Positions 3,527 to 23,262 of a DNA stretch of 41,408 nt are shown in pieces. The DNA lies in IMG/VR virus record IMGVR_UViG_3300023184_003180, positions 1 through 41,408 of that record; one strand, given 5' to 3'. The notes under the pieces were generated by a model. The model worked only from the letters and a program-made list of their open reading frames with translations. It did not search any database and was not told where the DNA came from. The DNA is from a virus. A program made the position numbers and the translations under genes. The stretch's first letter is position 1; each line of letters opens with the position of its first letter.

Positions 3527-4444
3527 ATGAAAAAACTTTTAATCGCATTGATTACCGCGGCTATTTCACTGACAGTATCGGCCAAGGAAAATATCACCAT
3601 CGTTTACAGTTGGTCACCTAGCGATGCAGCCGCAAACTTTTATCGCGCATTAGCTGAAGAATCAAACCGACAACAAGACAAATACAATTTTGTTGTAGAC
3701 ACCAAGCCCGGGGCAGGTGGCACTGTGGCAGCAAAGTACGTAGACTCAAATCCAGGAATGATCCTTGCTAATAGTTCGGCACTGTTTATTCGCCCTCAGT
3801 TCTTCCCTAACGAAAGTCATAATATTGCAGACTATCGTTCGATTATGCCCATGTGTTTGGCACCAATGTACATTGCAACTGGCAAATACAAAACATGGAA
3901 CGAAGTTCCAAAGGACCAGCCAACAACAATTGGTATGAGCGGCATGGGTACTACAACACACATGGTTGCCGAGCAGATTGTTAAACGTTATCCCAATCTA
4001 ACAGTAATACCATTTAAGAGTACCAGCGAAGCATTACTGTCTGCACTTAGCGGACAAACTGACTTTGCCGTAGTATTTTTTGGTGATGCTGATAGTTGGG
4101 CCAAAAACGATAATGGAGGCAGGAAACTTTACCTATTGGGTATGACCGGTAAACAAGCAGTAAATGGGGTCCAAACATTATCGTCACAAGGATTTTCTGT
4201 GTTGTTAACCGATATGAGTGCATCACAACAGTTATTTGTATCCGTAAAATTCCCCGAAGACAAGTTTAAAGAAATTAGAAGTATTTTTGTCAAGGCTGCT
4301 CAATCTAAGTTAGTTCGTGACGCCAATTCAGCCGACGGTTGCATTCCAAATAATCAATTAGCAGACAAGGATCTAGACGGTTGGTTTGTGTTTCAAAATA
4401 CACATTGGAAGAACGTTGCTTCCGGAATCACTATTAAAAAATAA
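3527..4444 (+). CDS. TctC/Bug-type periplasmic solute-binding protein, copy 1
   Basis: This 305-residue protein begins with a signal peptide (charged MKK, hydrophobic core, likely cleavage after VSA near residue 19). The mature part follows the tripartite tricarboxylate transporter receptor (TctC, Bug) pattern: an initial strand ITIVYSWSPSD, the DTKPGAGGTVAAKYV block typical of the family, and a G-x-T-H-type segment (GMGTTTHMVAEQIVKRYP). Bug proteins bind small carboxylates or other organic anions in the periplasm and pass them to a TctAB permease, which is not encoded here. It would act with host TctAB or scavenge a solute. It is followed after 15 bases by a paralogue. Such a binding protein is unusual in a phage; PstS is the well-known analogue. 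Confidence 0.85.
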   Translation: MKKLLIALITAAISLTVSAKENITIVYSWSPSDAAANFYRALAEESNRQQDKYNFVVDTKPGAGGTVAAKYVDSNPGMILANSSALFIRPQFFPNESHNIADYRSIMPMCLAPMYIATGKYKTWNEVPKDQPTTIGMSGMGTTTHMVAEQIVKRYPNLTVIPFKSTSEALLSALSGQTDFAVVFFGDADSWAKNDNGGRKLYLLGMTGKQAVNGVQTLSSQGFSVLLTDMSASQQLFVSVKFPEDKFKEIRSIFVKAAQSKLVRDANSADGCIPNNQLADKDLDGWFVFQNTHWKNVASGITIKK

Positions 4445-4459
4445 TAAAGTAAAAGATAT

Positions 4460-5365
4460 ATGAAGAAAATTTTAGCATTCATCATGAGTGTATGTGCGCT
4501 AACTGCATCGGCACGAGACATAGTAACAATCTACTACGCATTTACACCATCTGACAGTGTGGCCAATTATGGTCGGACTATAGCAGATGAGGCAAACAAG
4601 TTACAGGACCGATACACATTCTTGTTTGACACCAAGGCAGGCGCAGGCAATGCTGTTGCAGCCAATTATGTAAAAAATAATGCCAACACTATCTTGTTTA
4701 CAAGTAGTGCATTCTTTATTCGCCCTAATTTGTATCCTAATGAGAGTTATAATCTTGCAGACTTCCGTGAGATTATGCCTTTTTGTAATGGCCCCATGGC
4801 AGTTACCAGTTTTAAATACAAGTCCTGGGCAGAAGTTCCACGAGACCGACCACTTAGTATCGGCATTAGCGGACTAGGTGCAACCAGCCATTTGATCAGT
4901 TTACAAATTGTGTCTAAATATCCAGACATGCAACCAATCCCATTTAAGAGTCCTAGCGAGTCAATGATTGGTATGGTCAGTGGAGCAATTGACCTAAACG
5001 TAGATTTTATCAGTGGTGCTGATACCTGGGCCAAGGAAACTAACAAACAACGTGTAAATGTATTAGGTATCACTGGGGCTAAAGTGATCAATGGATACAA
5101 GCCACTAGCCGACGAGGGCTTTCCTGGGATTCTAAGATCAATGAATTTACCACATCACATGGTGGTCCCCGCTAGTACCCCTGATGTAAAGTTTCGAGAG
5201 TGGCGTGCCGTACTAGTAAAGGCGGCCCAAGCACAATCTGTACAAGATGCATATCGAGTTGATTCTTGTGTGGCCAATGTGCTACGAGATGAAGAATTGG
5301 CCCCTTGGTATGCAGCTCAAGTTGAACAATGGCGTAGATTGACTGCTGGCGTTAAACTACAGTAA
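4460..5365 (+). CDS. TctC/Bug-type periplasmic solute-binding protein, copy 2
   Basis: This 301-residue paralogue of the preceding gene shares the same layout throughout: signal peptide ending TASA near residue 18, YYAFTPSDSVANYGR, DTKAGAGNAVAANYV, FIRPNLYPNESYNLADFREIMP and a paired C-terminus. The match to copy 1 is end-to-end, so the pair arose by tandem duplication or successive acquisition. Residues at the ligand loops differ (GAGG versus GAGN; SGMGTTTHM versus SGLGATSHL), so the two may bind different ligands. No membrane permease follows. Confidence 0.85.
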   Translation: MKKILAFIMSVCALTASARDIVTIYYAFTPSDSVANYGRTIADEANKLQDRYTFLFDTKAGAGNAVAANYVKNNANTILFTSSAFFIRPNLYPNESYNLADFREIMPFCNGPMAVTSFKYKSWAEVPRDRPLSIGISGLGATSHLISLQIVSKYPDMQPIPFKSPSESMIGMVSGAIDLNVDFISGADTWAKETNKQRVNVLGITGAKVINGYKPLADEGFPGILRSMNLPHHMVVPASTPDVKFREWRAVLVKAAQAQSVQDAYRVDSCVANVLRDEELAPWYAAQVEQWRRLTAGVKLQ

Positions 5366-9728: not shown

Positions 9729-10580
9729 ATGACCCATTACGCCACATTAGGTATCAACGAAACTGCTGATGCAAATGAAATCAAACGGGCTTATAGAAAG
9801 TTAGCAAGCCAGCACCATCCAGACAAAGGCGGAGATACTGCTCGGTTTCAAGAGATCGAAGCCGCATATCGTATACTAAGTGATCCTGCACAACGTGAGC
9901 AGTATGACCATCAAAGACGTAACCCTGGGGGCGGATTTCGTTTTACTGTAAATGGACAAGATATGCAGGGCATGCCTGGTGGTATGGATGATATCCTACG
10001 TAACTTTGGCTTTGGCTTTCCCGGAGGCGACCCATTTGCTCATGCTCGCCAACCCCGTCGTAACAAAGACCTGCGATTAGATATTCCTGTTACATTGGCC
10101 AGCACACTAGAAGACCAAAAGAAAACAATCAGTGTACAAACTACAAACGGACAACGAGAAAATGTAGAAATTACTATTCCAAGGGGCGCACAAAGTGGTA
10201 CGCAAATTAAATACCCGGGACTTGGTGATAACTTTTTTGCCACATTGCCACGTGGTGATTTATATGTACTGATACATTTGCAACCACACGCTCCATTTGA
10301 AGTACGTGACTTAAATGTTGTAACCACTGTACACATCGATTGTTTACGGGCTGTAACTGGCGGCGAGGTCACAGTAGAAGGTATTGATGGCAGTAATTTT
10401 GTACTAAATTTAACTCCGGGTACTCAACCAAATACAACATTGCGTATACGTGATCACGGAGTTTGGCAAATACACGGCTCGACAAGAGGCGACTTACATG
10501 TTAAAATAGCCATAACAGTTCCGCGTAACTTAACTGAAACGCAGTTGCAAACGATTCGAGAAATACAATCAACTCTATAA
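9729..10580 (+). CDS. dnaJ: DnaJ-like co-chaperone (class B, CbpA type)
   Basis: This 283-residue J-domain protein should stimulate host DnaK ATPase and deliver substrates. The J domain covers residues 1-65 with HPD at 30-32; a Gly/Phe-rich linker (about 70-110) follows, then the two beta-sandwich client-binding domains (LDIPVTLASTLEDQKKTI and LRAVTGGEVTVEGIDG). The CxxCxGxG zinc domain is absent, so it is class B like CbpA. It has its own early promoter and is followed after 18 bases by a ClpA-type unfoldase, so the two may act together in protein remodelling. The predicted transcript start is close to the ATG, leaving a very short leader. Confidence 0.92.
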   Translation: MTHYATLGINETADANEIKRAYRKLASQHHPDKGGDTARFQEIEAAYRILSDPAQREQYDHQRRNPGGGFRFTVNGQDMQGMPGGMDDILRNFGFGFPGGDPFAHARQPRRNKDLRLDIPVTLASTLEDQKKTISVQTTNGQRENVEITIPRGAQSGTQIKYPGLGDNFFATLPRGDLYVLIHLQPHAPFEVRDLNVVTTVHIDCLRAVTGGEVTVEGIDGSNFVLNLTPGTQPNTTLRIRDHGVWQIHGSTRGDLHVKIAITVPRNLTETQLQTIREIQSTL

Positions 10581-10583
10581 ATA
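10576..10583 (+). promoter_or_regulatory. T4-type late promoter motif before clpA
   Basis: TATAAATA overlaps the dnaJ stop. The predicted start near 10589 falls at the GAGG ribosome site, which would give a leader of about 10 bases. Match is perfect but the short leader leaves doubt. Confidence 0.45.
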
Positions 10584-10598
10584 TTTGTGAGGCATTAA

Positions 10599-12890
10599 TT
10601 GGAAAACGGAATGATTCACCCAAACCCCGAAATTGAAGTTGTTATTAACAGTGCAACTGAAAAAGCACGATACCACAATCACGAATATGTTACCCTAGAA
10701 CACATACTATACGGACTTGTTACATACGAGCCATTTGGTAAGTTGTTAACCAACTATGGTGCTGATGTAGATGGATTGACCAAAGACACAGATGATTATC
10801 TAAGTAGCCAAACTTACTTGGTCAGTAACGAACCCGATTGCAGTCCAAAGAAAACACATACTCTGGAACGAACTCTTAATCGTGCATTAACGCAGGTGCT
10901 GTTTAGTGCTCGGCATCAATTGCAAATTGTTGATTTGTTTATCAGCATTACACAAGAACACAATAGTCATGCGGCATACTTTATATTAAAATATGGAATC
11001 GACAATCGCGATGACTTTATAAAGTTTTATAACGACAATTACCATACCCCAAGGAATCGCAAGCACGCCAATGCAATACGTGCCACAGAGATTCTTAAGG
11101 AACATTGTGAAGATTTAAACGCACAGGCAGTGGAAGGTAAAATTGATCCGGTCATTGGCCGTGATTACGAAATTGATGAGATTGCACAAGTGCTGGCTAA
11201 ACGCAATAAAAGCAACATCTTAATGGTTGGAGATCCAGGGGTGGGCAAAACTGCCATTGCCGAGGGCCTGGCATTAAAGATTATTAACCAACAAGTGCCG
11301 GCATACTTATCGGACTATACAGTTTACAATTTGGATATTGGGTCAATGCTAGCGGGCAGTAAGTATCGCGGGGAGTTTGAAGAAAAACTCAAAGACACAA
11401 TTAAAGCACTAATTGCCAAAGGCAAGTGTATCTTGTTTATCGACGAAGCACATCAAATGCAAGGTGCCGGATCCGGAAGCAGTGGCAATAGTGTAGACTT
11501 CGCTAACATGATCAAACCAGCACTGGGCAAAGGACAATTGAAAGTTATTGCAAGTACCACCTGGGAAGAATATAGTAAGAGTTTTGAAAAGGATCGCGCA
11601 CTGATGCGTCGCTTCTATAGACTCACAATTGACGAGCCCACTCCCGCAGTGGCCAAGGATATTCTTAAAGGCTTACGTGGACACTTTGAAACATTCCATG
11701 GTGGCATCATTGACGATACGGCAATCGAAGCCGCGGTAGATCTAAGTGTACGTTATCAAACAGACAAGCGTCTCCCAGACAAGGCAATTGACCTTATTGA
11801 TACTGCCTGTGCAAGATTAAAGATCAAAGAAACAGATTGGACTTGTTCTCGTGGACACATCATTGATGCTATTGCCAAATTTACAAAGATCCCTGCAGAA
11901 CAAATTGGTTCAGAAACTGTTAAGAATTTAGAACACTTGGAAGAAAATGTCAAGAGCCGTTTGTATGGACAAGATACAGTAGTTGACACACTACTAGAAA
12001 AGATCTATGTGAGTCGTGCAGGACTCAAAAGCATCAACAAGCCAGTGGGCAGTTTCTTGTTCCTTGGCCCAACAGGCACAGGCAAGACCGAACTTGCTAA
12101 ACTATTGGCCGAAAATCTCGGGATGAAACTTATAAGATACGATATGAGTGAATACCAAGAGAAACACACAGTTGCCAAACTCATTGGCGCACCCCCGGGA
12201 TATGTAGGCTATGATGATGGAAACATCGGAGGCGGATTGCTAATCAGTGACTTAGAGAAGAGTCCCAATAGTATTGTGTTATTTGATGAGATTGAAAAAG
12301 CACACCCTGATGTCAGTAACATATTATTGAGCCTAATGGACGAAGGTGTTGTTACAAGTAGCAATGGCAAGAAAGCAGATGCACGTAACTGTATTGTTAT
12401 CTTAACCAGTAACTTGGGTGCTGCTGACAATGAGCGTAAAAGCATTGGATTTGGTGATGTTGATCGTACAGACGAAGACGACAAGGCAGTTAAAGACTTC
12501 TTTAAGCCTGAATTTCGTAATCGTTTAGATGCAGTATGCAAATTTAACCGGTTAGATCAGTTGAGCATGAAGAAAATTGTTGCCAAGTTTGTTAACGAGA
12601 TCAACGAGTTACTCGGCGACAAAGCGGTACGTATTCGTTTAACCGAAGCGGCCGCAGAATACTTGGCAGAAATTGGATATGACCCTAAAATGGGCGCACG
12701 ACCCTTGGCACGTAAGATTAACGATTTGATCAAAGTACCGTTGAGTCGAAAGATCTTGTTTGAGAATATTCCTCGATCAAGTATCGTGATTGTTGACTGT
12801 GTAGACAAAGAGTTTACATTCACTGTACACACAAATAGTGTTCAACCTGTAGTGGATCAAGATGGATACATCGTTCTGGAAAAGTCTTAA
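10599..12890 (+). CDS. clpA: ClpA-type AAA+ unfoldase
   Basis: A 763-residue two-ring Clp ATPase close to the length of E. coli ClpA (758). An N-domain (residues ~5-150) aligns with ClpA from its first residues. NBD1 has Walker A GDPGVGKT (211-218) and FIDEAH (280-285); NBD2 has GPTGTGKT (490-497) and LFDEIEKAHPD (561-571). The ERKSIGF segment places IGF at 616-618, the loop by which ClpA docks on ClpP, so it could feed host ClpP. The TTG start at 10599 has GAGG six bases upstream; the ATG at 10611 is a weaker alternative. Whole ClpA genes are unusual in phages. Confidence 0.93.
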   Translation: MENGMIHPNPEIEVVINSATEKARYHNHEYVTLEHILYGLVTYEPFGKLLTNYGADVDGLTKDTDDYLSSQTYLVSNEPDCSPKKTHTLERTLNRALTQVLFSARHQLQIVDLFISITQEHNSHAAYFILKYGIDNRDDFIKFYNDNYHTPRNRKHANAIRATEILKEHCEDLNAQAVEGKIDPVIGRDYEIDEIAQVLAKRNKSNILMVGDPGVGKTAIAEGLALKIINQQVPAYLSDYTVYNLDIGSMLAGSKYRGEFEEKLKDTIKALIAKGKCILFIDEAHQMQGAGSGSSGNSVDFANMIKPALGKGQLKVIASTTWEEYSKSFEKDRALMRRFYRLTIDEPTPAVAKDILKGLRGHFETFHGGIIDDTAIEAAVDLSVRYQTDKRLPDKAIDLIDTACARLKIKETDWTCSRGHIIDAIAKFTKIPAEQIGSETVKNLEHLEENVKSRLYGQDTVVDTLLEKIYVSRAGLKSINKPVGSFLFLGPTGTGKTELAKLLAENLGMKLIRYDMSEYQEKHTVAKLIGAPPGYVGYDDGNIGGGLLISDLEKSPNSIVLFDEIEKAHPDVSNILLSLMDEGVVTSSNGKKADARNCIVILTSNLGAADNERKSIGFGDVDRTDEDDKAVKDFFKPEFRNRLDAVCKFNRLDQLSMKKIVAKFVNEINELLGDKAVRIRLTEAAAEYLAEIGYDPKMGARPLARKINDLIKVPLSRKILFENIPRSSIVIVDCVDKEFTFTVHTNSVQPVVDQDGYIVLEKS

Positions 12891-15187: not shown

Positions 15188-15790
15188 ATGTACATAGCGG
15201 AACTGTTTGAAGCACGATCACAAAAGACTTTAGTCGTATTGCCCGGGGGATTCCATCCGTTCCACCCCGGGCATCTTTCTTTGTACACCGCAGCACAACG
15301 GGCTTTTCCCGGAGCCGACATATATTATGCTGCCACAAACGACAAGAGCGAGCGTCCGTTTGACATTGCCGACAAAGCCAAGTTAGCAGAGATCATTGGT
15401 GTACCCCGAGGACATTTTGTACAGGTCAAGAGTCCGTTTCAGGCCCGGGAAATAACCAGCAACTACGATGCCGATTCAACGGTATTGGTATTTGCACGTA
15501 GCGAAAAAGATCGAAACGAACCACCACAAGCCGGCGGTGTCAAAAAGAACGGCGAGCCTGCATACCTACAACCCTATACCAAAAATCCTGCGCCAATGAG
15601 CCAGCATGGTTACATGGCGTATCTGCCCACAGTGGAATTTGACGCAGGCCCTAGCGGCGTTACCAGTGCCACACAAATTCGCGACATGTGGCCTCGAGCC
15701 AATAAGCAACAAAAGCAAGAGATTGTTGCTGATCTCTATCCACGCGACCCCAAGACAGCAAGACAAATTTTAGACAAGAACTTGTCATGA
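15188..15790 (+). CDS. nucleotidylyltransferase-superfamily protein
   Basis: The 200-residue protein belongs to the cytidylyl/adenylyltransferase superfamily: LPGGFHPFHPGHLSLY carries the HxGH nucleotide-binding motif (H26-P-G-H29), and SGVTSATQIRD near residues 158-168 corresponds to the second phosphate-binding motif (ISSTxxR type). Family members include NMN adenylyltransferase and pantetheine-phosphate adenylyltransferase; the substrate here is not determinable. The N-terminus MYIAELFEARSQ precedes the catalytic fold and looks like a short added tag with an LFE|A site, shared in type with other proteins of this region. Confidence 0.8.
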   Translation: MYIAELFEARSQKTLVVLPGGFHPFHPGHLSLYTAAQRAFPGADIYYAATNDKSERPFDIADKAKLAEIIGVPRGHFVQVKSPFQAREITSNYDADSTVLVFARSEKDRNEPPQAGGVKKNGEPAYLQPYTKNPAPMSQHGYMAYLPTVEFDAGPSGVTSATQIRDMWPRANKQQKQEIVADLYPRDPKTARQILDKNLS

Positions 15791-16056
15791 GTACTATAAG
15801 CGTTAAAATTGATGTTTATTGTACACGAGCCGAGGGTAATCCGGCTTATCGCTTGTACGTTGACGGGGATTTATTAACTGAACGCACATGGACTTGGCCT
15901 GCATACGAGGTATTTGTGCGTGAAAATATTGAGGTTAACGTCGAGCCCGGCGATCATAAACTTGATCTAGTGGACTGTAGCAACAACAATGTTTTTTATA
16001 TTAAAAATATAACAGTCAATGGCACTGCAAATAATGGGCCGGTGTTCACAGTATAA
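15787..16056 (+). CDS. small beta-sandwich protein (possible CBM-like module)
   Basis: This 89-residue, probably all-beta protein (VYCTRAEGNPAYRLYVDG, then IEVNVEPGDHKLDLVDC) overlaps the nucleotidylyltransferase gene by 4 bases. Its strand pattern resembles the N-terminal part of the protein at 14713-15159, and also calcium-dependent carbohydrate-binding modules, but I cannot confirm that from sequence alone. Confidence 0.5.
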   Translation: MSTISVKIDVYCTRAEGNPAYRLYVDGDLLTERTWTWPAYEVFVRENIEVNVEPGDHKLDLVDCSNNNVFYIKNITVNGTANNGPVFTV

Positions 16057-16064
16057 TATAAATA
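16057..16064 (+). promoter_or_regulatory. T4-type late promoter motif
   Basis: TATAAATA immediately after the preceding stop; predicted start near 16070, leader about 16 bases to the ATG at 16086. A TATAAT overlaps at 16052-16057. Confidence 0.55.
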
Positions 16065-16085
16065 TAACATATACCGGATTTAGAC

Positions 16086-16802
16086 ATGAAACCAACAGAA
16101 TTTTTACGTGAATTTGATACCATGGAAGACGAGCAACTTGACGGCATGGCTCTAGGCGAACTAAAAGCCATTGCACAATCTGCTGAAAAGATTTACAATT
16201 CAGTAAAATCGGGCACGCCACTAGAAGCATGGATGTACAAAAAGATCACTAATGGCAACGAAGGCCTAACTGCTGTTGCACAACAGATCAACAACCCCGA
16301 AATTAGAGAACCACAACACAATACACTAGAATCTGCACCTGACTATTCCGACATGTTTGAAGGTACCATATACGATATGGACAAAGAGTATGGTGCGCCT
16401 GCTCCCAAACATAAGCCTCGCCCACACATGGCACCACAACGCCCACGTCATCCCGATGATCCCGACTTTATGGATCCCGACCAACGTAGACTACGTGCTG
16501 ACCAGGCACGTGTCAAGAAGGCACAAGATGAATACCATGCTAAGAAAGGTGTGGCGGAAAGAATTACTCCACCGGGCAAAGATGATATGGAACAATATCG
16601 AAAAGACACAGCCGATATGGCCAAGCGAGCGATAGCGAATAAAACGCCAATGTCAAAGAATCCGGTAAACGAATTTGCCGGCGGCATGGGTGCAAGTAGT
16701 GTAGCAATAGCACCCGGAGTAGGCAAGGGCCCTAAAGTCGGAAGTTTGTTTGGCGGCAGTTATGCACCCAAGACTCCATTTAATCGGAAGCGTAAACGGT
16801 AA
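16086..16802 (+). CDS. low-complexity protein with CTS-like N-terminus
   Basis: The 238-residue protein starts MKPTEFLREF, closely similar to the T4 internal protein capsid-targeting sequence (MKTYQEFIAEA). The middle (residues ~100-160) is rich in Pro, Asp, Lys and Arg, and the end is basic (FNRKRKR). A segment ELKAIAQSAEKIYNSVKSGTPLE (split by context) is helical. No catalytic domain is seen. It may be an internal head or other virion protein, inferred from the tag-like N-terminus and neighbours. Confidence 0.6.
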   Translation: MKPTEFLREFDTMEDEQLDGMALGELKAIAQSAEKIYNSVKSGTPLEAWMYKKITNGNEGLTAVAQQINNPEIREPQHNTLESAPDYSDMFEGTIYDMDKEYGAPAPKHKPRPHMAPQRPRHPDDPDFMDPDQRRLRADQARVKKAQDEYHAKKGVAERITPPGKDDMEQYRKDTADMAKRAIANKTPMSKNPVNEFAGGMGASSVAIAPGVGKGPKVGSLFGGSYAPKTPFNRKRKR

Positions 16803-17572
16803 TGGACATTAAAGATTTATTGGCACGTATAGACACCATAAACGAAGCAGCCAATCCAGCACAACAGGCTGCTATCGCCATTGCTATGAAAAAAGCAGGA
16901 GATAAACCCAAGAGTGAAGGCTCAATGAGCAGTGCTGAAAAACACAGCACTGGTCCCAAGTTTGTGGGCAAGTGGCGAGGCACAGACAGTGCCAGCAAAG
17001 CACGAGGCAAATACGTTGGTGGCGAAAGTATCTTACGTGACTTGGAACGGAAATTAGATGAAACTCCTGTACGTGACCTAATGCGCGAATATAGAGAGTT
17101 CAAAGAAGCCACAGCACCACAACAGGCACAACCTGCACAGACTGGTACGCCAACCCTGGGAGCAGATTTAACCAAGCCCGGTACACCACAACAACAGCAA
17201 CAACAAGATCCTGCACAAAAAGCTGCACAACAAAAACTCGACCAACAAGAAAAAGCCGAACAAAACAACTTGCAAAAAGGTGTTGCCAGCATGAAAATGG
17301 CCGGAGCGGCAATTAGTAACCCAGCAAATTTAACAAAAGCATTTGGCAAAGTAGATGACCAACAACCGTTAAATCCTGCAGACAAAGGTGCTATTGCATC
17401 AGCTGGCACAGTGCTGGCACCTATTATGTCAAACCCACAATTACAGAGCAAGTTCAAAGACTTGGTCACACAGGCCAGTGCTTCGGCAAAACAGCAACAA
17501 CAAAAACAACAGCAGGCTACAACACCCACAGGAGCCAACCAAGTAACACCAACAACGGGCGCACCAAAATGA
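16802..17572 (+). CDS. Gln/Ala-rich low-complexity protein with CTS-like N-terminus
   Basis: The 256-residue protein starts MDIKDLLARIDTINEAANP, in which INE|A fits the T4 gp21 prohead protease site (I/L-x-E|A/G). Gln-rich runs occupy about residues 105-160 and the last 35 residues, separating a helical segment of ~80 residues (FGKVDDQQPLNPADKGAIAS region). The first 60 residues include KSEGSMSSAEKHSTGPKFV and a KARGKYVGG stretch. It overlaps both neighbours by 1-4 bases. A scaffolding, internal or virion role is inferred; no enzyme motif is seen. Confidence 0.6.
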   Translation: MDIKDLLARIDTINEAANPAQQAAIAIAMKKAGDKPKSEGSMSSAEKHSTGPKFVGKWRGTDSASKARGKYVGGESILRDLERKLDETPVRDLMREYREFKEATAPQQAQPAQTGTPTLGADLTKPGTPQQQQQQDPAQKAAQQKLDQQEKAEQNNLQKGVASMKMAGAAISNPANLTKAFGKVDDQQPLNPADKGAIASAGTVLAPIMSNPQLQSKFKDLVTQASASAKQQQQKQQQATTPTGANQVTPTTGAPK

Positions 17573-19677
17573 ACATACACGAACTATTTGAAGACAAGGC
17601 CAAGAAGCAACGCTTAGACCCTAAATGTTGGACAGGATACCACAAAGCCGGGACCAAGGTCAAAGGTGGTGTGCGTGTCAACAACTGTGTGCCCAATGAA
17701 GGCATAGAAGTTGTCAGTGAGTTTGCTCCACCCGGTGGCGATGATAGCGACCACGATCCCGAAGAGTTATTATTTAGATTGGCCAAGCAATGGTGGCTTG
17801 GAACTGAATCGGACATGATCCGTGTGGAACGTACCTTGGCCAGTATGGGTTGGGAAATCGGCGAAGATGAAGGCTACGACGATGGCGGCGTGTTTGTGGT
17901 ACAGGCCGGTGATGAGAACGGCAAGAGCTATATCAGCTGGCCACATGAAGACTTGGCCGACGAAGGTGTGGCGGAAGAAGCCGGTACTAAAGGCTATCGT
18001 GTAACATGGTCAGAAGCAGGTAGCGATAAACACACCAGTGGCTTGTTGTTAAAACACCATGCTATTGAACATGCCAAGATGCTAAAAAACAAACCAGGCA
18101 CAAGCAATGTTAAGGTTATTCCTTATCGTAGTGTTGAAGAAGGTCATCGTGACGAAGATAATCCATTTTCTAAAGGTTCAATGGGCGATGCGTTATATAA
18201 AGCATTAGGTAGCAAGAAAGTAAGTCCACAACAAGTTCAACGCAACAGAGAGCGGTTTGCCAAGCGTGATGCAGAAAGATATACCATTGCCAACGATCCG
18301 GACAAGCCAGGATTGTATCATTATTCAGACATTGCTCATGCATTGCAAAATGGTCATAGCGATTCTGCAAAAGTCTACAAACACAATAAGTTCATTGGCA
18401 CAGTTGGTGATGTAAGACAGCAAGATTTGGCGGAAGGTGAACTAGATGAAAAGTCAACAAGCCAAGCACAGTTTCGCACAATGGCAGCTGCCGCACACAA
18501 TCCTGCGTTTGCAAAGAAAGTTGGCATTAAACCGTCAGTGGCAAAAGAATTCCACGGTGCAGATCGTAAACAGAGTTACCGGTCATTACCTAAGAAGGTA
18601 GATGAGGGCATAATGGACTTCATGCAACCACAGCAGCCTAAGACTACAAAAGATAAACTTACATTGGCTGCAATGCGTCAAATTGAAAAGGCACGTGCCG
18701 ATAAAGAACGCCAAGACCCCACGTATGTGCGTAGCAAAGACTTGCCCAAGAATCCTGACCATGTGCGTGTAGTGACAGATGCTAAAGGTGACTACAAACC
18801 GCCTAAAGAAGCCGACTACGGTGCGGACTACCAAGATATGGTTCGTCGTGTTGCGGCACAGGAAAAGCGTAAGCAACAACAGCCCAAGCCTGCAAAACGT
18901 GAAGACAGCAACATGCCTGTGGCAGTGGACAGTACTAGTCCTATACACGGCGCCAATGAAGATTCAGAAGGTGTCAGCACAAAAAACATCAGTCCCGCAA
19001 GTCAGAAACTGATACAAAAGGCACGTCAAGCTGCACCCGATGCACGTAGTGATCTTGATGCAGTATTTGCATACTTAGACGATGTTGCAAAGCGCACACA
19101 AGATAATTATGGCCGAGTCAATGACATTCTACAACAGTTAGATCCCATGAGTAATGACTTGGATAAGGCCGAACGAGAATTAGATCGTGTAAGACAAGTT
19201 AACCAAGGACAACAACAGTTATTGGGCAGACTCAAATCACGCCTAGATAAAACAGGTGCGGATACTGCTCCGGTACAGGCACAACAAGCACAACAAGATA
19301 AACGAGACGCCGACGAGCGTGACGCTATCGGCCAGCAATTGGCCCAAGAGCCACAGCAGGTTGTTGTTAAGCAAGAACCACAAGGCCCAGTTGATGCTGT
19401 AGACAAAGTAGCAAGACAAAAAGCCGATCAAGCTGAACGAGATATTCACAACTTGTATTCAAAAGATGCATCAAGTACAGCTAGTAAGACAATTAGTCAA
19501 ATTCAACAGAGGATGCTTACTCCGCCTTCGGATCCCAAAATAGATCCATCAACTACAGTGGTTAATCCAGATAAGATAAAAGCCCTTGCAAAGAATTTTT
19601 TACAAAAAGATGAAATTACCGAAGACATCTACGAGAGCAGATTGTACAAAATGAAGCTGGCTGGATACTTTGACTAA
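17569..19677 (+). CDS. large mosaic modular protein with CTS-like N-terminus
   Basis: The 702-residue protein begins MNIHELFEDKAK (compare T4 Alt MELITELFDED). Short modules follow: a DPKCWTGYHKAGTKVKGG block with two Cys (residues ~17-41), VSEFAPPGGDD, a region with WWLGTESDMIRVERTLASMG and GVFVVQAGDENGKSYISWP (~65-125), a helical part, then DLAEGELDE and a STSQAQFRTMAAAAHNP module with AFAKKVGI (~290-335). Residues ~480-650 are a long Gln-rich coiled-coil. I recognise several of these short blocks as recurring in marine phage mosaic proteins. LAE|G and similar sites between modules could be cut by the prohead protease. Function unknown. Confidence 0.65.
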   Translation: MNIHELFEDKAKKQRLDPKCWTGYHKAGTKVKGGVRVNNCVPNEGIEVVSEFAPPGGDDSDHDPEELLFRLAKQWWLGTESDMIRVERTLASMGWEIGEDEGYDDGGVFVVQAGDENGKSYISWPHEDLADEGVAEEAGTKGYRVTWSEAGSDKHTSGLLLKHHAIEHAKMLKNKPGTSNVKVIPYRSVEEGHRDEDNPFSKGSMGDALYKALGSKKVSPQQVQRNRERFAKRDAERYTIANDPDKPGLYHYSDIAHALQNGHSDSAKVYKHNKFIGTVGDVRQQDLAEGELDEKSTSQAQFRTMAAAAHNPAFAKKVGIKPSVAKEFHGADRKQSYRSLPKKVDEGIMDFMQPQQPKTTKDKLTLAAMRQIEKARADKERQDPTYVRSKDLPKNPDHVRVVTDAKGDYKPPKEADYGADYQDMVRRVAAQEKRKQQQPKPAKREDSNMPVAVDSTSPIHGANEDSEGVSTKNISPASQKLIQKARQAAPDARSDLDAVFAYLDDVAKRTQDNYGRVNDILQQLDPMSNDLDKAERELDRVRQVNQGQQQLLGRLKSRLDKTGADTAPVQAQQAQQDKRDADERDAIGQQLAQEPQQVVVKQEPQGPVDAVDKVARQKADQAERDIHNLYSKDASSTASKTISQIQQRMLTPPSDPKIDPSTTVVNPDKIKALAKNFLQKDEITEDIYESRLYKMKLAGYFD

Positions 19678-19680
19678 ATA
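19673..19680 (+). promoter_or_regulatory. late promoter motif, leaderless arrangement
   Basis: ACTAAATA whose predicted start of transcription is 19686, exactly the A of the dps ATG. No Shine-Dalgarno is visible between them. Confidence 0.45.
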
Positions 19681-19685
19681 CTACT

Positions 19686-20123
19686 ATGAACGAAGAACTA
19701 CAAAAAGCAGCCCGAGTTGCATTTGCTACAGAATTTAGCTTTTATCTAAAAGCACACTACTTCCACTGGAACGTAGAGGGCATTCACTTCCAAGAGTATC
19801 ATGCATTGTTTGGCACCATATACGAAGAAGTTTATGGCATAATTGATGAGTTTGCCGAAAAGATTCGTAGTCTAGGTGCTTATGCCCCTGGAAGTTTCAG
19901 CAAGTTGAGTTTACTAAGCCGTATCGAAGATGAGACCGAAGTACCCGATACAGGCGCCATGGTTGCCATGTTGTTGGAAGATAGTGACCGTACTTGTGCG
20001 CTATTAAAAGTGGTTTACGATGTTGCTGAGTCTGTAGGTGAACACGGCTTCAGCAACTTCTTAGCCGAGCGTATGGATGCACACCGTAAACATTCATGGA
20101 TGCTACGTAGCAGTTTAAAATGA
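19686..20123 (+). CDS. dps: Dps-like ferritin
   Basis: The 145-residue protein has the Dps signature HWNVEG..F..YHALF..IYEEVY..IDEFAEKIR. The four ferroxidase-site residues of Dps are present at the correct spacing: H27, H39, D54 and E58 (12, 15 and 4 apart, as in E. coli numbering H31/H43/D58/E62 type). Dps dodecamers oxidise and store iron, protect DNA from peroxide and may bind DNA. It lacks the long basic N-terminal tail of DNA-binding Dps, so iron/peroxide handling is the safer prediction. The gene overlaps the next by 4 bases (ATGA). Confidence 0.9.
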   Translation: MNEELQKAARVAFATEFSFYLKAHYFHWNVEGIHFQEYHALFGTIYEEVYGIIDEFAEKIRSLGAYAPGSFSKLSLLSRIEDETEVPDTGAMVAMLLEDSDRTCALLKVVYDVAESVGEHGFSNFLAERMDAHRKHSWMLRSSLK

Positions 20124-22681
20124 ACGTCTATGACTTATTTGGCGAAGATGCCTCTGGGGTAGTCGCTAATAAGCGTCAAGCACGGGATCCACGTTACAGC
20201 ATGAGCCTTAGCCCGGACGTTCGGCCTGGGGAAATTACGAGACAACTTAAAAAATATAATCTTGTAGAAGGTGAAGAGAATTTAGCACGTTTAGATGCCA
20301 TACTCGTAGACCTTTGTGCAGGAATCATTCGACATCAAAAACAAGATAACAACCGTTATGGACTAGTTGCTGCCGCAGTAGTTGATCCCGACCATAATGT
20401 TGTATACGGTATCAATAATCTACAAAGCACGGGTAAACGTGTACATGCTGAACGTGCCGCATTGGCCAACTACAAACAAAAACATGGTGACATTCCCGAA
20501 GGTAGCGTAATTGTTACTACACTAAGCCCTTGTACAGAACCCATGCAAGATCGTGAGGGCATGAGTTGTAGTGAACTAATAGATACTACCCCCATACGTA
20601 GGGTCTATGCTGGCTACAGAGATCCAAGTCAAGACCATTTGACACATGATGACTTTGATGTGGTTGTCACAAATAACAGCAAACTTGAACAGTTATGCAA
20701 GGGCTTTGCTGATTGTTTCTTAAAGGAAGATGGTGCACAGGGCGGTAAACTGGTTATATTTGACATTGATGACACTCTGGTTAATACCAACACCAAAGTC
20801 ATAGTTAGACGCGATGGCCGACCGGTCCGACAATTAACAAGTCAAGAGTTCACACACTACAAGTTACAACCTGGCGAAACTTTTGACTTTGGTGCATTCA
20901 GTGATGCTGAAGAATTTGCCCGCGAGAGCAGACCCATTGTGCCAATGATACAACAGTTAAATGCCGACATTGCCAGTGGCAATAAAGTTGTTATGATAAC
21001 TGCACGTAGTGACTTTGATGATCGTGACACATTCCTAAATGCTTTTAGACAGTGGAGTGTGGACATTGATCGTGTACACGTATATCGTGCCGGAAACGAT
21101 CGTCGGCCTGTGAGCGTCGATGCCAAAAAGGCCGACATTGTACGCAGACTATTGGGGAGTGGTAACTACTCCAAAGCCATCATGTATGATGATAGTAAAC
21201 CAAATCTACAGTCGTTTGTGCGATTACACCGTGAGTATCCCTCAACACGTTTTTATGCGTGGCATGTAGACCATGGCGGACATACCACTGAGTACGCACG
21301 TACAGGCATACGTCAACCCGATGCCATGTTTGAAGCCGATACAGCCGGAGAAATAACCGATGCTGTTATTGACTTTTATAAAAAGCAAGACATCAAACCT
21401 GAGAAGGTCAACGACTATGTAGAACATGCTGTTGACTTGTTACATCGAGCAGATCCTACAATACGTGGTCGTGTACGAGAGATATTAAGCCGAGCAAATA
21501 AAAACCCCTATATACAAGGTGGTGTTATTACTACAGTGGGCGCATTGTTAACTGGTGGCTTGTTAACCACTGCTAGCCAGATGCACTTGACTCCGGCACA
21601 GACCAACATCCTGTTACAAGCAGTATTGAACACAGTCATCCCCACTGTAGTAAGTCGTGTAAATGGCAAGAACTGGATAGACACAGTCAAGTACACCTTG
21701 GCCAGTGCTGGAATTGGCACAGGCATTGCGCTACTAAGCGAAGATACCGAGTCTGACATTGATAGCATTGCACAAGAGTTTGTTGAGTTTGTCAGCAAGC
21801 GATTACAGTTTGATCAAATGCCACACATTGACTTTGTTGAGCATGTAACAGGTACAGAACATCCCACATTTGGGTCGTACGACAGCAACACCGACGTGAT
21901 CAACATCGGTACTAGTGATCGACATGTCATGGACATCATGCGTACATTAGCACACGAGCTGGTACATCACAAACAACGTGAAACTAAATCAGAATTAGAT
22001 GGTGGCACTGCTAGTCGGGACGAGAATCAAGCCAATAGCGTAGCCGGAACACTCATGCGTGAGTTTGCTGATCAACACCCCGAATACTTTGGTGGCAAGC
22101 CGGGTGTAGCAGAAGGCAAAGAACAGTTTAATTATGAATTAGCACAAAAAGGATTTCACTTTGAACAAGAAATTGGCGGAGTAACATATAGGGTAACGAA
22201 TAAAAAAGGTGGCTCAGATAATATCAATATTGAAGCCATAGATGATAAAGGACAGGCAATAGGATTTGCTCGCTTTTGGATGCACCAGTACAAAAATGGA
22301 TTAGAAAGCCTGAGTACTCAGGTAAGAGATGACTGGCAGGGAAAAGGAATAGCCGCAAATATGTATGCCGTTATGCGTATGTTAGGTGTTAATATACATC
22401 CAGCGTCAATGCAAAGTGATGATGGTAAAAAGATGTGGGACAAGTGGAACAAGCAAGGTGATGCCCGGCACATCAAAAGTATGAATGCCAAAATGGCGGA
22501 AAACTTTGCTGACGGCAAGAATCCAGGACGCAAAGGACTTGCCAAGCGTTCGGGCGTCAACACCAAAGCCAGTGTTAGCACTTTGAGAAATGTTGCCAAA
22601 CATTCCTCAGGTGAGAAGCAACGTATGGCACATTGGTTGGCCAACATGAAGGCTGGTAGGGCAAAGGCACGTAAAAAATGA
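20120..22681 (+). CDS. multidomain polyprotein: deaminase, HAD phosphatase, Zn protease, acetyltransferase
   Basis: This 853-residue protein joins several enzymes. It starts MNVYDLFGEDAS, a tag-like N-terminus. Residues ~50-195: CDA-like deaminase with HAE (109-111), PC (137-138) and a distant Cys150 as zinc ligands. Residues ~208-395: HAD phosphatase with DIDDT (D215, D217), MITAR and DDSKPN. Residues ~463-540: hydrophobic helices. Residues ~545-660: zinc-protease-like HELVHH (612-617) with a DENQAN segment giving a likely third ligand (E635). Residues ~665-780: GNAT-like acetyltransferase with WQGKGIAANMYAVM. A basic tail with GRKGLAKRSG and GEKQRMAHWLANM ends it. Linkers such as FLKEDGAQGG, LLSEDTES and GVAEGKEQ could be proteolytically cut. 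Substrates are unknown. Confidence 0.8.
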   Translation: MNVYDLFGEDASGVVANKRQARDPRYSMSLSPDVRPGEITRQLKKYNLVEGEENLARLDAILVDLCAGIIRHQKQDNNRYGLVAAAVVDPDHNVVYGINNLQSTGKRVHAERAALANYKQKHGDIPEGSVIVTTLSPCTEPMQDREGMSCSELIDTTPIRRVYAGYRDPSQDHLTHDDFDVVVTNNSKLEQLCKGFADCFLKEDGAQGGKLVIFDIDDTLVNTNTKVIVRRDGRPVRQLTSQEFTHYKLQPGETFDFGAFSDAEEFARESRPIVPMIQQLNADIASGNKVVMITARSDFDDRDTFLNAFRQWSVDIDRVHVYRAGNDRRPVSVDAKKADIVRRLLGSGNYSKAIMYDDSKPNLQSFVRLHREYPSTRFYAWHVDHGGHTTEYARTGIRQPDAMFEADTAGEITDAVIDFYKKQDIKPEKVNDYVEHAVDLLHRADPTIRGRVREILSRANKNPYIQGGVITTVGALLTGGLLTTASQMHLTPAQTNILLQAVLNTVIPTVVSRVNGKNWIDTVKYTLASAGIGTGIALLSEDTESDIDSIAQEFVEFVSKRLQFDQMPHIDFVEHVTGTEHPTFGSYDSNTDVINIGTSDRHVMDIMRTLAHELVHHKQRETKSELDGGTASRDENQANSVAGTLMREFADQHPEYFGGKPGVAEGKEQFNYELAQKGFHFEQEIGGVTYRVTNKKGGSDNINIEAIDDKGQAIGFARFWMHQYKNGLESLSTQVRDDWQGKGIAANMYAVMRMLGVNIHPASMQSDDGKKMWDKWNKQGDARHIKSMNAKMAENFADGKNPGRKGLAKRSGVNTKASVSTLRNVAKHSSGEKQRMAHWLANMKAGRAKARKK

Positions 22682-23262
22682 ACATAGTTTACATTCACGG
22701 GGCCAGTGCCACCAGTGAGAGTTTTAACTATATACGCAGCAAAGTAGGTCGGGGCACGGACATCAACTACGACAGTCGCAACGGGTTTGAAAACAACCTA
22801 AATGACATGTTGGCGACATTGAAAGAACAAGATGACATGTTCTTTGTAGCACACAGTCTGGGTGGAATATACAGTTTGCACATTGCCAACAGTTTACCTG
22901 ACCGAGTTCTAGGAGCAGTTACAATCAGTACGCCATATGGTGGTGCACAAGTAGCCGAAGTGGCCAAATACTTTTTACCATTTAGTAGACTCATGCGTGA
23001 CATTGGACCCAGTTCGTGGGCTATGACTCAAGCAGACACAATCAAGATTCAACACCCTTGGTGCAATGTGGTCACTGTACGGGGGCAAAGTCCTTTTATA
23101 CCAGATGCCAATGACGGGGTTGTAACTGTAAAAAGCCAACAACATCATGTGGATATGGAATTGGTTGAAGTTGACTACAATCACTATGAAGTTTTACAGT
23201 CCGACACAGTGGTTCGACTGGTCCGAGATCGAATCAAAACATTTAATCGATTATCGTTATAA
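22678..23262 (+). CDS. alpha/beta hydrolase (lipase-like)
   Basis: The 194-residue protein has an IHGASATSESF oxyanion-region motif near the N-terminus, the nucleophile elbow AHSLGG (Ser at about residue 60), an acidic residue in PDANDGVV, and a histidine in YNHYEVLQ, matching a Ser-Asp-His triad. It resembles PGAP1-like/lipase hydrolases that act on esters; substrate unknown and no signal peptide is seen. It overlaps the polyprotein gene by 4 bases, so it is the last gene of that unit. Confidence 0.8.
   Translation: MNIVYIHGASATSESFNYIRSKVGRGTDINYDSRNGFENNLNDMLATLKEQDDMFFVAHSLGGIYSLHIANSLPDRVLGAVTISTPYGGAQVAEVAKYFLPFSRLMRDIGPSSWAMTQADTIKIQHPWCNVVTVRGQSPFIPDANDGVVTVKSQQHHVDMELVEVDYNHYEVLQSDTVVRLVRDRIKTFNRLSL

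Follow-up and report, generated by a model that had tools for sequence, protein, structure and literature searches.

Tagged, cassette-built phage proteins with prohead-protease-type sites and a conserved DNA seam at their joints: probable head-targeted cargo of T4-like and jumbo phages

In a 41,408-nucleotide stretch of viral DNA (IMG/VR record IMGVR_UViG_3300023184_003180, positions 1 to 41,408; here called the window) and in related contigs, we found proteins with short N-terminal tags and a cassette structure, protease-type sites at the joints between the cassettes and a conserved DNA seam at the commonest joint; the prohead protease gp21 is encoded by relatives. These proteins are probably polyprotein cargo of T4-like and jumbo phages, targeted to the head and cut by gp21, with the joint doubling as a recombination seam. 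The short N-terminal leader (MYIAELFE/A, MKPTEFLRE/F, ...INE/A and MNIHELFE/D here, MRAxEF[IL]xE/ type in relatives; the slash marks the putative cut) would dock the newly made protein in the core of the prohead, and the S77 protease gp21 would cleave [ILV]xE sites behind the Glu, so that the leader is removed and the modules come apart. The freed modules, among them a deaminase, a Pnkp-like phosphatase, a membrane module, a metallopeptidase, an acetyltransferase and a basic domain, would be injected together with the DNA, and homologous recombination between joints would exchange cassettes in frame.

The interval 15188–22681 holds seven genes, five of which begin with a tag (Table 1), while two (15787–16056 and 19686–20123, the latter coding for a Dps/ferritin-like protein) do not. 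A preliminary description of this DNA had reported a similar short N-terminus on five neighbouring proteins, and all five were found where it had placed them. The pattern ^M.{1,4}[DEN][FL][LFI], devised post hoc with the tags already known, matches exactly these five among the 48 CDS examined; when residues 2–25 of 47 window ORFs were shuffled, the mean was 0.8 matches, and at least five occurred in 2 of 2,000 shuffles. In the relatives L002 and L005 tags occupy equivalent gene positions (MFVTELFEAK, MKPTEFLREF, MDQHFSNIINTFKRLDE, MFLNDIVDAMSIAEAKR, MRASEFLIESKG). The cleavage rule of gp21, L/I-x-E, is followed by the leaders of four of the five genes (IAE or LFE, LRE, INE, and IHE or LFE) but not by MNVYDLFGED, which has FGE instead of strict [IL]xE. 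The raw number of [ILV]xE sites in the five proteins (27 versus 20.5, p 0.07) is not significant alone and was dropped as evidence, whereas sites followed by A, G, S, D, T or N number 18 versus 9.6 (p 0.0035). The informative feature is the location of these sites, not their number.

Table 1. Tagged genes, modules and DNA seams of the interval (window coordinates; slash, putative cut)
Feature	Position	Strand	Remarks
Nucleotidylyltransferase gene, tag MYIAELFEARS (MYIAE/LFE/)	15188..15211	+	compared with tagged homologs
Nucleotidylyltransferase body (GGFHPFHPGHLSLY)	15212..15787	+	cytidylyltransferase/adenylyltransferase superfamily; weak matches to TIGR00125 and to phosphopantetheine adenylyltransferase structures; L002 homolog matches PF01467
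238-aa tagged protein, MKPTEFLRE/F (tag MKPTEFLREFD)	16086..16799	+	
DNA seam GGTGTGGCGGAA encoding GVAE (KKGVAE/R)	16548..16559	+	
256-aa tagged protein, MDIKDLLARIDTINE/A (tag MDIKDLLARIDTINEA, start 16802)	16802..17569	+	Q/A-rich tail
702-aa polyprotein, tag MNIHELFEDKA (MNIHE/LFE/)	17569..17592	+	
702-aa modular polyprotein	17593..19674	+	
DNA seam GGTGTGGCGGAA encoding GVAE (DEGVAE/E)	17965..17976	+	
853-aa polyprotein, tag MNVYDLFGEDA (MNVYDLFGE/)	20120..20146	+	
ASG-type short module, ends LVE/G	20147..20269	+	elsewhere after VSE (L159), LEE (L089), VHE (L061), VRE (L057)
Cytidine/dCMP deaminase module, ends LKE/D	20270..20728	+	PF00383 2e-10; fold matches RibG and dCMP deaminase
HAD phosphatase module, T4 Pnkp 3'-phosphatase-like, ends MFE/A	20729..21334	+	phrog_415; 5uj0
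Helical, glycine-rich module, ends LSE/D	21335..21742	+	helical in structure model; probably membrane-associated; within 64% identical block of L002/L005
HExxH metallopeptidase module (LAHELVHH), ends GVAE/G	21743..22114	+	weak jannalysin fold match; stand-alone protein in Synechococcus phage B23
DNA seam variant GGTGTAGCAGAA encoding GVAE (KPGVAE/G)	22103..22114	+	
GNAT acetyltransferase-like module, ends MAE/N	22115..22501	+	homologous L002 part matches PF00583
C-terminal basic module (NFADGKNPGRKGLAKRSGV...), after MAE/	22502..22678	+	recurs behind VAE/MAE/VTE/LNE in many proteins

As the window pattern was fitted to tags already known, the relatives provide a more stringent test. The motif search across the genome and its relatives that the preliminary description had suggested returned, besides the 5 of 48 CDS in the window, 101 proteins on 70 contigs: a T4-like start (^M[KR]x(1-3)[EDQ][FIL][ILVM]xE) occurs at 101 of 2,173 protein starts, compared to 0.46 expected from shuffling, and at only 0.07% of internal Met. 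The likeness to T4 capsid-targeting sequences that had been claimed is supported by this comparison. In the relatives the leader, with a consensus of the MRAxEF[IL]xE type, is joined to unrelated bodies, and conservation ends at the Glu (E9); P3 is I, L or V in 100 of the 101 tags, the search pattern itself having admitted only I, L, V or M. Within residues 2–20, [IL]xE is found in 62% of the seam-carrying proteins, but in 28% of the others. Homologs of the nucleotidylyltransferase carry the tags MFIFELFE/A, MFVTELFE/A and MNLKDILE/A, although one clade lacks a tag and has modules at the C-terminus instead, so that the tag is not universal. Among ten cultured phages the exact tag spacing gave single matches in two only, one each in Phosso and SCTP-2, neither of the MRA type, and the cultured jumbo relatives CBB, PA5oct, Vibrio 2.275.O and Atu_ph07 have no tag with such spacing. 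Sequence comparison thus supports a genuine and widespread leader of T4 internal-protein type, which ends in [ILV]xE and occurs irrespective of the body behind it.

The leader codons are near background usage except for position 2 (AGA), which rules out the tag as a DNA repeat and argues that the peptide itself is under selection. This freedom of the codons also speaks against cytoplasmic polyproteins whose modules act in the infected cell without being packaged, their N-terminal likeness being due to common ancestry among a few leader peptides. Cytoplasmic action would be normal for nucleotide-metabolism enzymes such as the deaminase and Pnkp, yet the leader is close to that of T4 internal proteins and sits on unrelated bodies, and one module (residues 296–343 of the 702-aa protein) matches N-terminal positions of the PHROG virion structural proteins 22033 and 25121; we consider this reading very unlikely. 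As for head-targeted cargo, which the preliminary description had proposed for these proteins, the leader is supported by the comparison with relatives, and we infer packaging and injection.

The large proteins are, as read from their homologies, cassette-built polyproteins. Distinct enzymatic domains (deaminase, HAD/Pnkp, HExxH peptidase and GNAT) are combined in one polypeptide at 20120–22678, and L002 and L005 carry the domains of this 853-aa protein in permuted order. All seven of its proposed joints lie at an [LVMF]xE site, and its homology ends (q54-204, q210-400, q412-542, q543-670, q684-793 and q792-853) coincide with Glu 50, 203, 405, 541, 665 and 794. The 702-aa protein consists of a CWTGYHK module, an EFAPPGGD module (49–136), residues 137–294, the virion-protein-like module and a long tail; the EFAPPGGD module recurs in over 30 proteins, flanked by unrelated sequence. 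Residues 13–77 of the 238-aa protein form a module that is 83% identical to residues 200–264 of an 814-aa protein of L005 and thus lies inside a different polyprotein in relatives. In cultured phages, tblastn with two window modules gave no matches, and a relaxed search gave weak matches only, including a protein of 201phi2-1 (phiKZ-type) whose record carries no virion-protein label.

Across the relatives an [ILV]xE site lies within 5 aa of 247 of 551 breakpoints (102 expected) and of 85 of 270 non-redundant ones (48.5 expected, z 5.8), a peak that is inflated by alignment ends being pulled toward shared motifs. In an unsupervised ranking at the 270 non-redundant breakpoints LxE comes first (3.7x), VxE second (2.6x) and EG third. 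The motif is loose, and folded domains have it too (E127, E556 and E648 of the 853-aa protein). Leader and joints might serve solely for docking or as linkers, in which case the proteins would be packaged via the leader but left uncut, with the LxE/VxE joints as flexible spacers. Packaging without cutting is possible in T4, where an Asp in position 10 of the leader prevents processing yet leaves targeting intact (PMC9026906), and in the structure model the joints sit in low-confidence, probably flexible segments, the joint Glu of the 853-aa protein lying in or at the edge of segments with pLDDT <50. Spacers, however, could do without conserved residues, whereas LxE and VxE head the enrichment ranking at breakpoints whose flanks are unrelated; moreover, leader conservation ends exactly at the Glu, and an LxE site is present in gp23 from these phages, so that we regard linkers alone as unlikely.

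Cleavage by gp21 is consistent with the gene content of relatives. The protease (PF03420, Peptidase_S77), for which the preliminary description had suggested looking, is present in 7 of 7 related contigs with gp23 but, like gp23, was not found in the contigs of the closest relatives, which are fragments. The six gp21 sequences inspected have the His and GVSSRG Ser motifs, and in gp23 of gp21-bearing relatives residues 41–43 form an LxE/[NST] site.

Two features had escaped the preliminary description, namely the same site type at joints inside the polyproteins and the conservation of the commonest joint as DNA. This joint, QGVAE/G, corresponds to a single DNA word, RAGCAAGGTGTGGCGGAAGGC, of ~20 bp (18–21 bp), which is nearly fixed, shared by many phages, conserved even at synonymous positions and sharp at its edges. 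As the word stands in direct repeat around cassettes, in-frame cassette exchange would be possible. Among loci not fetched by the seam itself, GVAE is spelled GGTGTGGCGGAA in 67 of 113 cases, compared to 0.67 expected from codon usage, which rules out codon bias as the cause; other frequent tetrapeptides mostly have one spelling in 6–33%. A general bacterial sequence is ruled out as well (1 match in 84,980 genomes, in an ordinary cellular gene). DNA homology blocks end at the seam on both contigs in 195 cases (3.1 expected). Together with the synonymous conservation and the sharp edges, these block ends would fit a purely DNA-level seam, i.e. a recombination or mobile-cassette boundary whose encoded peptide is irrelevant. 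However, 305 of 305 exact copies lie in one frame inside ORFs, the Glu is kept in the variants GMAE and GVEE, and other joints have LxE with unrelated DNA; this alternative is distinctly unlikely. For a joint that would be both seam and cut site, P3 is V (VAE) rather than the L or I preferred by T4 gp21, a conservative substitution, and the site is a putative one.

The leader of T4 internal proteins reads MKTYQEFIAE/A, from which MRAxEF[IL]xE differs in spacing. T4 gp21 (MEROPS S77) cleaves behind L/I-x-E, and the 10 N-terminal residues of IPIII are enough to direct packaging (PMC9026906); the leader is the only part shared by Ip1–3 (PMC12373910), and Alt has N- and C-terminal cuts only (PMC5694885). 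As with IPI–III and Alt, a short leader ending in I/L-x-E is found here on otherwise unrelated proteins, and relatives have gp21 and gp23 LxE sites; unlike them, the putative cargo here extends to large polyproteins of several domains with sites at numerous internal joints, and the commonest joint is conserved as a DNA word. Polyvalent proteins of phages and conjugative elements, as far as described in the parts of PMC5512222 consulted, are mosaics of 2–15 domains per polypeptide with frequent metallopeptidase domains, are thought to be injected with the DNA, and are proposed to be processed by their own metallopeptidase domain, as for P1 DdrB. The proteins here likewise combine several domains and a metallopeptidase in mosaic fashion, but have prohead-protease-type sites at the joints and an N-terminal T4-like leader; a DNA seam is not among the features described in those parts. 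The 853-aa protein contains HExxH, and proteins with the same joints but without this domain are common. Inner-body and ejection proteins of phiKZ and SPN3US are cut by S80-type prohead proteases at S/A-x-E (PMC5694885, PMC9026906). They are head cargo with a short Glu-ending cut motif, sometimes with several sites per protein, as would be the case here; there, however, a diverged protease family removes propeptides, whereas here cassettes would be separated.

At the onset of infection, T4 Ip1–3 and Alt counter restriction and the host RNA polymerase. It is a tentative but real possibility that the proteins described here form a plug-and-play cargo, in which one ~20-bp word would serve both as an in-frame recombination seam and as the code for a prohead-protease site that releases cassettes in the head, so that the effectors injected by many uncultured T4-like and jumbo phages would come from a common pool undergoing rapid reshuffling. 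If so, the seam would explain how mosaic effectors are built, with the frame kept, a flexible linker provided and the pieces separable later, and leader and seam would be search keys to a vast, unexplored group of phage proteins that enter the cell as infection starts.

All five head-targeting-like N-terminal tags listed in the preliminary description are present in the window sequence, in five of seven neighbouring genes; the other two, untagged and lying among the five, are an 89-aa gene and a Dps/ferritin-like gene. A post hoc tag pattern fits only these five of the 48 genes examined. IMG/VR was scanned with three window proteins (853-aa, 702-aa, nucleotidylyltransferase) and with a codon-degenerate QGVAEG pattern, yielding about 190 related loci. 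Among them, a T4-like leader, ^M[KR]x(1-3)[EDQ][FIL][ILVM]xE, starts 101 of 2,173 proteins (70 contigs), compared with 0.46 after shuffling and 0.07% of internal methionines. The consensus, MRAxEF[IL]xE, is not conserved past Glu 9 and precedes bodies that, as read from their sequences, include nucleotidylyltransferases, unknown proteins and LysM-like, acetyltransferase-like and Zn-ribbon-like ones. Tag codons are close to background usage except for AGA at position 2, and it is therefore the peptide that is kept.

The window is a single IMG/VR contig (41,408 bases) that reads, by its clamp-loader-like and PhoH-like proteins, as a T4-like phage fragment. It also carries genes that match TctC receptors, which are unusual phage cargo, and a phage-encoded chaperone/unfoldase pair (DnaJ and a ClpA/ClpB-type AAA+ protein).

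Features of the window and of related IMG/VR loci (L numbers; ↓, putative cut position)
Sequence	Position	Feature	Remark
Window	near 473-2798	Clamp-loader-like and PhoH-like proteins	
Window	3527-5365	Two adjoining genes, signal-peptide-like N-termini	TctC tripartite tricarboxylate receptor matches (PF03401), the second slightly below cut-off
Window	9729-12890	Full DnaJ (J domain, DnaJ_C)	Adjoins 763-aa AAA+ protein
Window	15188-22681	Seven genes, five of them tagged	
Window	19686-20123	Dps/ferritin-like gene	Between tagged polyprotein genes; position kept in L002 and L005
Window	22678-23262	Alpha/beta-hydrolase-like protein	Directly 3' of 853-aa gene; not seen there in L002/L005
Window	16548, 17965, 22103	Seams	
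L002	8744-9967	Tagged gene, MRASEFLIE↓SKG...	GP88 family domain (PF17338, 1.6e-25); no counterpart in window block
L089	3-4211	Open polyprotein, 1,402 aa	Six G[VM][AE]E joints; includes partial nucleotidylyltransferase and DUF5661 domain
L097	1278-1493	Cassette shared with L133	Both ends are seams
L133	7731-7943	Cassette shared with L097	Both ends are seams

The large proteins are mosaics. One stretch of the 702-aa protein (residues 49-136, between VVSE↓ and GVAE↓) recurs in more than 30 proteins with unrelated flanks, at roughly 35-85% identity. Homology blocks of the 853-aa protein with other phages (residues 54-204, 210-400, 412-542, 543-670, 684-793 and 792-853) have edges matching Glu 50, 203, 405, 541, 665 and 794. 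These modules come in the order peptidase-GNAT, basic module, HAD-membrane in L002 and L005, and a module of the window's 238-aa protein lies within a different polyprotein of L005 (83%). In the AlphaFold model of the 853-aa protein all listed joint Glu fall within, or border, segments of pLDDT <50, with the helical module poorly predicted over its whole length.

For 551 internal alignment ends, from loci obtained through sequence similarity only, [ILV]xE lies within 5 residues in 247 cases (102 expected; 85/270 versus 48.5 after clustering), a peak partly sharpened by the method because alignment ends tend towards shared motifs; even so, that joints between unrelated modules have a motif in common is the very thing observed. 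When residue pairs around the 270 ends were counted without supervision, LxE came first (47 versus 12.8), VxE second (55 versus 21) and EG third, which recovers the gp21 rule without presupposing it.

At the commonest joint, QGVAE↓G, the DNA is conserved as well. In 83 loci fetched independently of the QGVAEG pattern, GVAE is the most frequent tetrapeptide. Of its 113 non-redundant occurrences, 67 are spelled GGTGTGGCGGAA, where codon usage predicts 0.67; for other frequent tetrapeptides without seam overlap, the single-spelling share is 6-33%. Over all loci, the 305 exact copies of this DNA word (the seam) share one frame, with conservation from about -6 to +14 and background level beyond. 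Ends of DNA similarity blocks in both contigs fall ≤6 bp from a seam 195 times (3.1 expected); 21 of 28 long records hold 1-7 exact seams, frequently clustered, and the window holds three (0.02 expected). The 21-bp word was essentially absent among bacterial genomes in a genome search. The seam suggests that homologous exchange also takes place at the joints; either recombination as such or selection for exchangeability may be what maintains the word. Repoila et al. (1994), cited in PMC12373910, reportedly dealt with polymorphic T-even loci. Among the open-access journal papers searched, GVAEG occurs in a single one, which does not deal with phages.

A gp21-type protease, which the preliminary description proposed to look for, is present in some relatives: among 21 long contigs with these proteins, Peptidase_S77 occurs on the same seven that carry gp23. 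The six S77 proteins inspected retain the His of DHPxD and the Ser of GVSSRG, and in 7/7 contigs residues 41-43 of gp23 form an L-x-E↓[NST] site. For one contig (L178), the best-matching gp23 sequences, 64-68% identical, come from jumbo T4-like phages (Vibrio 2.275.O, PA5oct, Rak2-like).

IPIII of T4 starts with MKTYQEFIAE↓A; its ten N-terminal residues are enough for packaging, and gp21 cuts after L/I-x-E (PMC9026906). The leader is the sole common part of Ip1-3, each of which counters different type IV restriction enzymes (PMC12373910), and Alt is cut at both ends (PMC5694885). Polyvalent proteins are mosaic and thought to be injected, with self-processing proposed (PMC5512222). The simplest account of tag and joints, in which packaging, cutting and injection are inferred, is head targeting in the T4 style: the leader would direct the protein to the head, gp21 would cut at the leader and at the joints, and the polyprotein would thereby come apart inside the head into single modules that would be injected.
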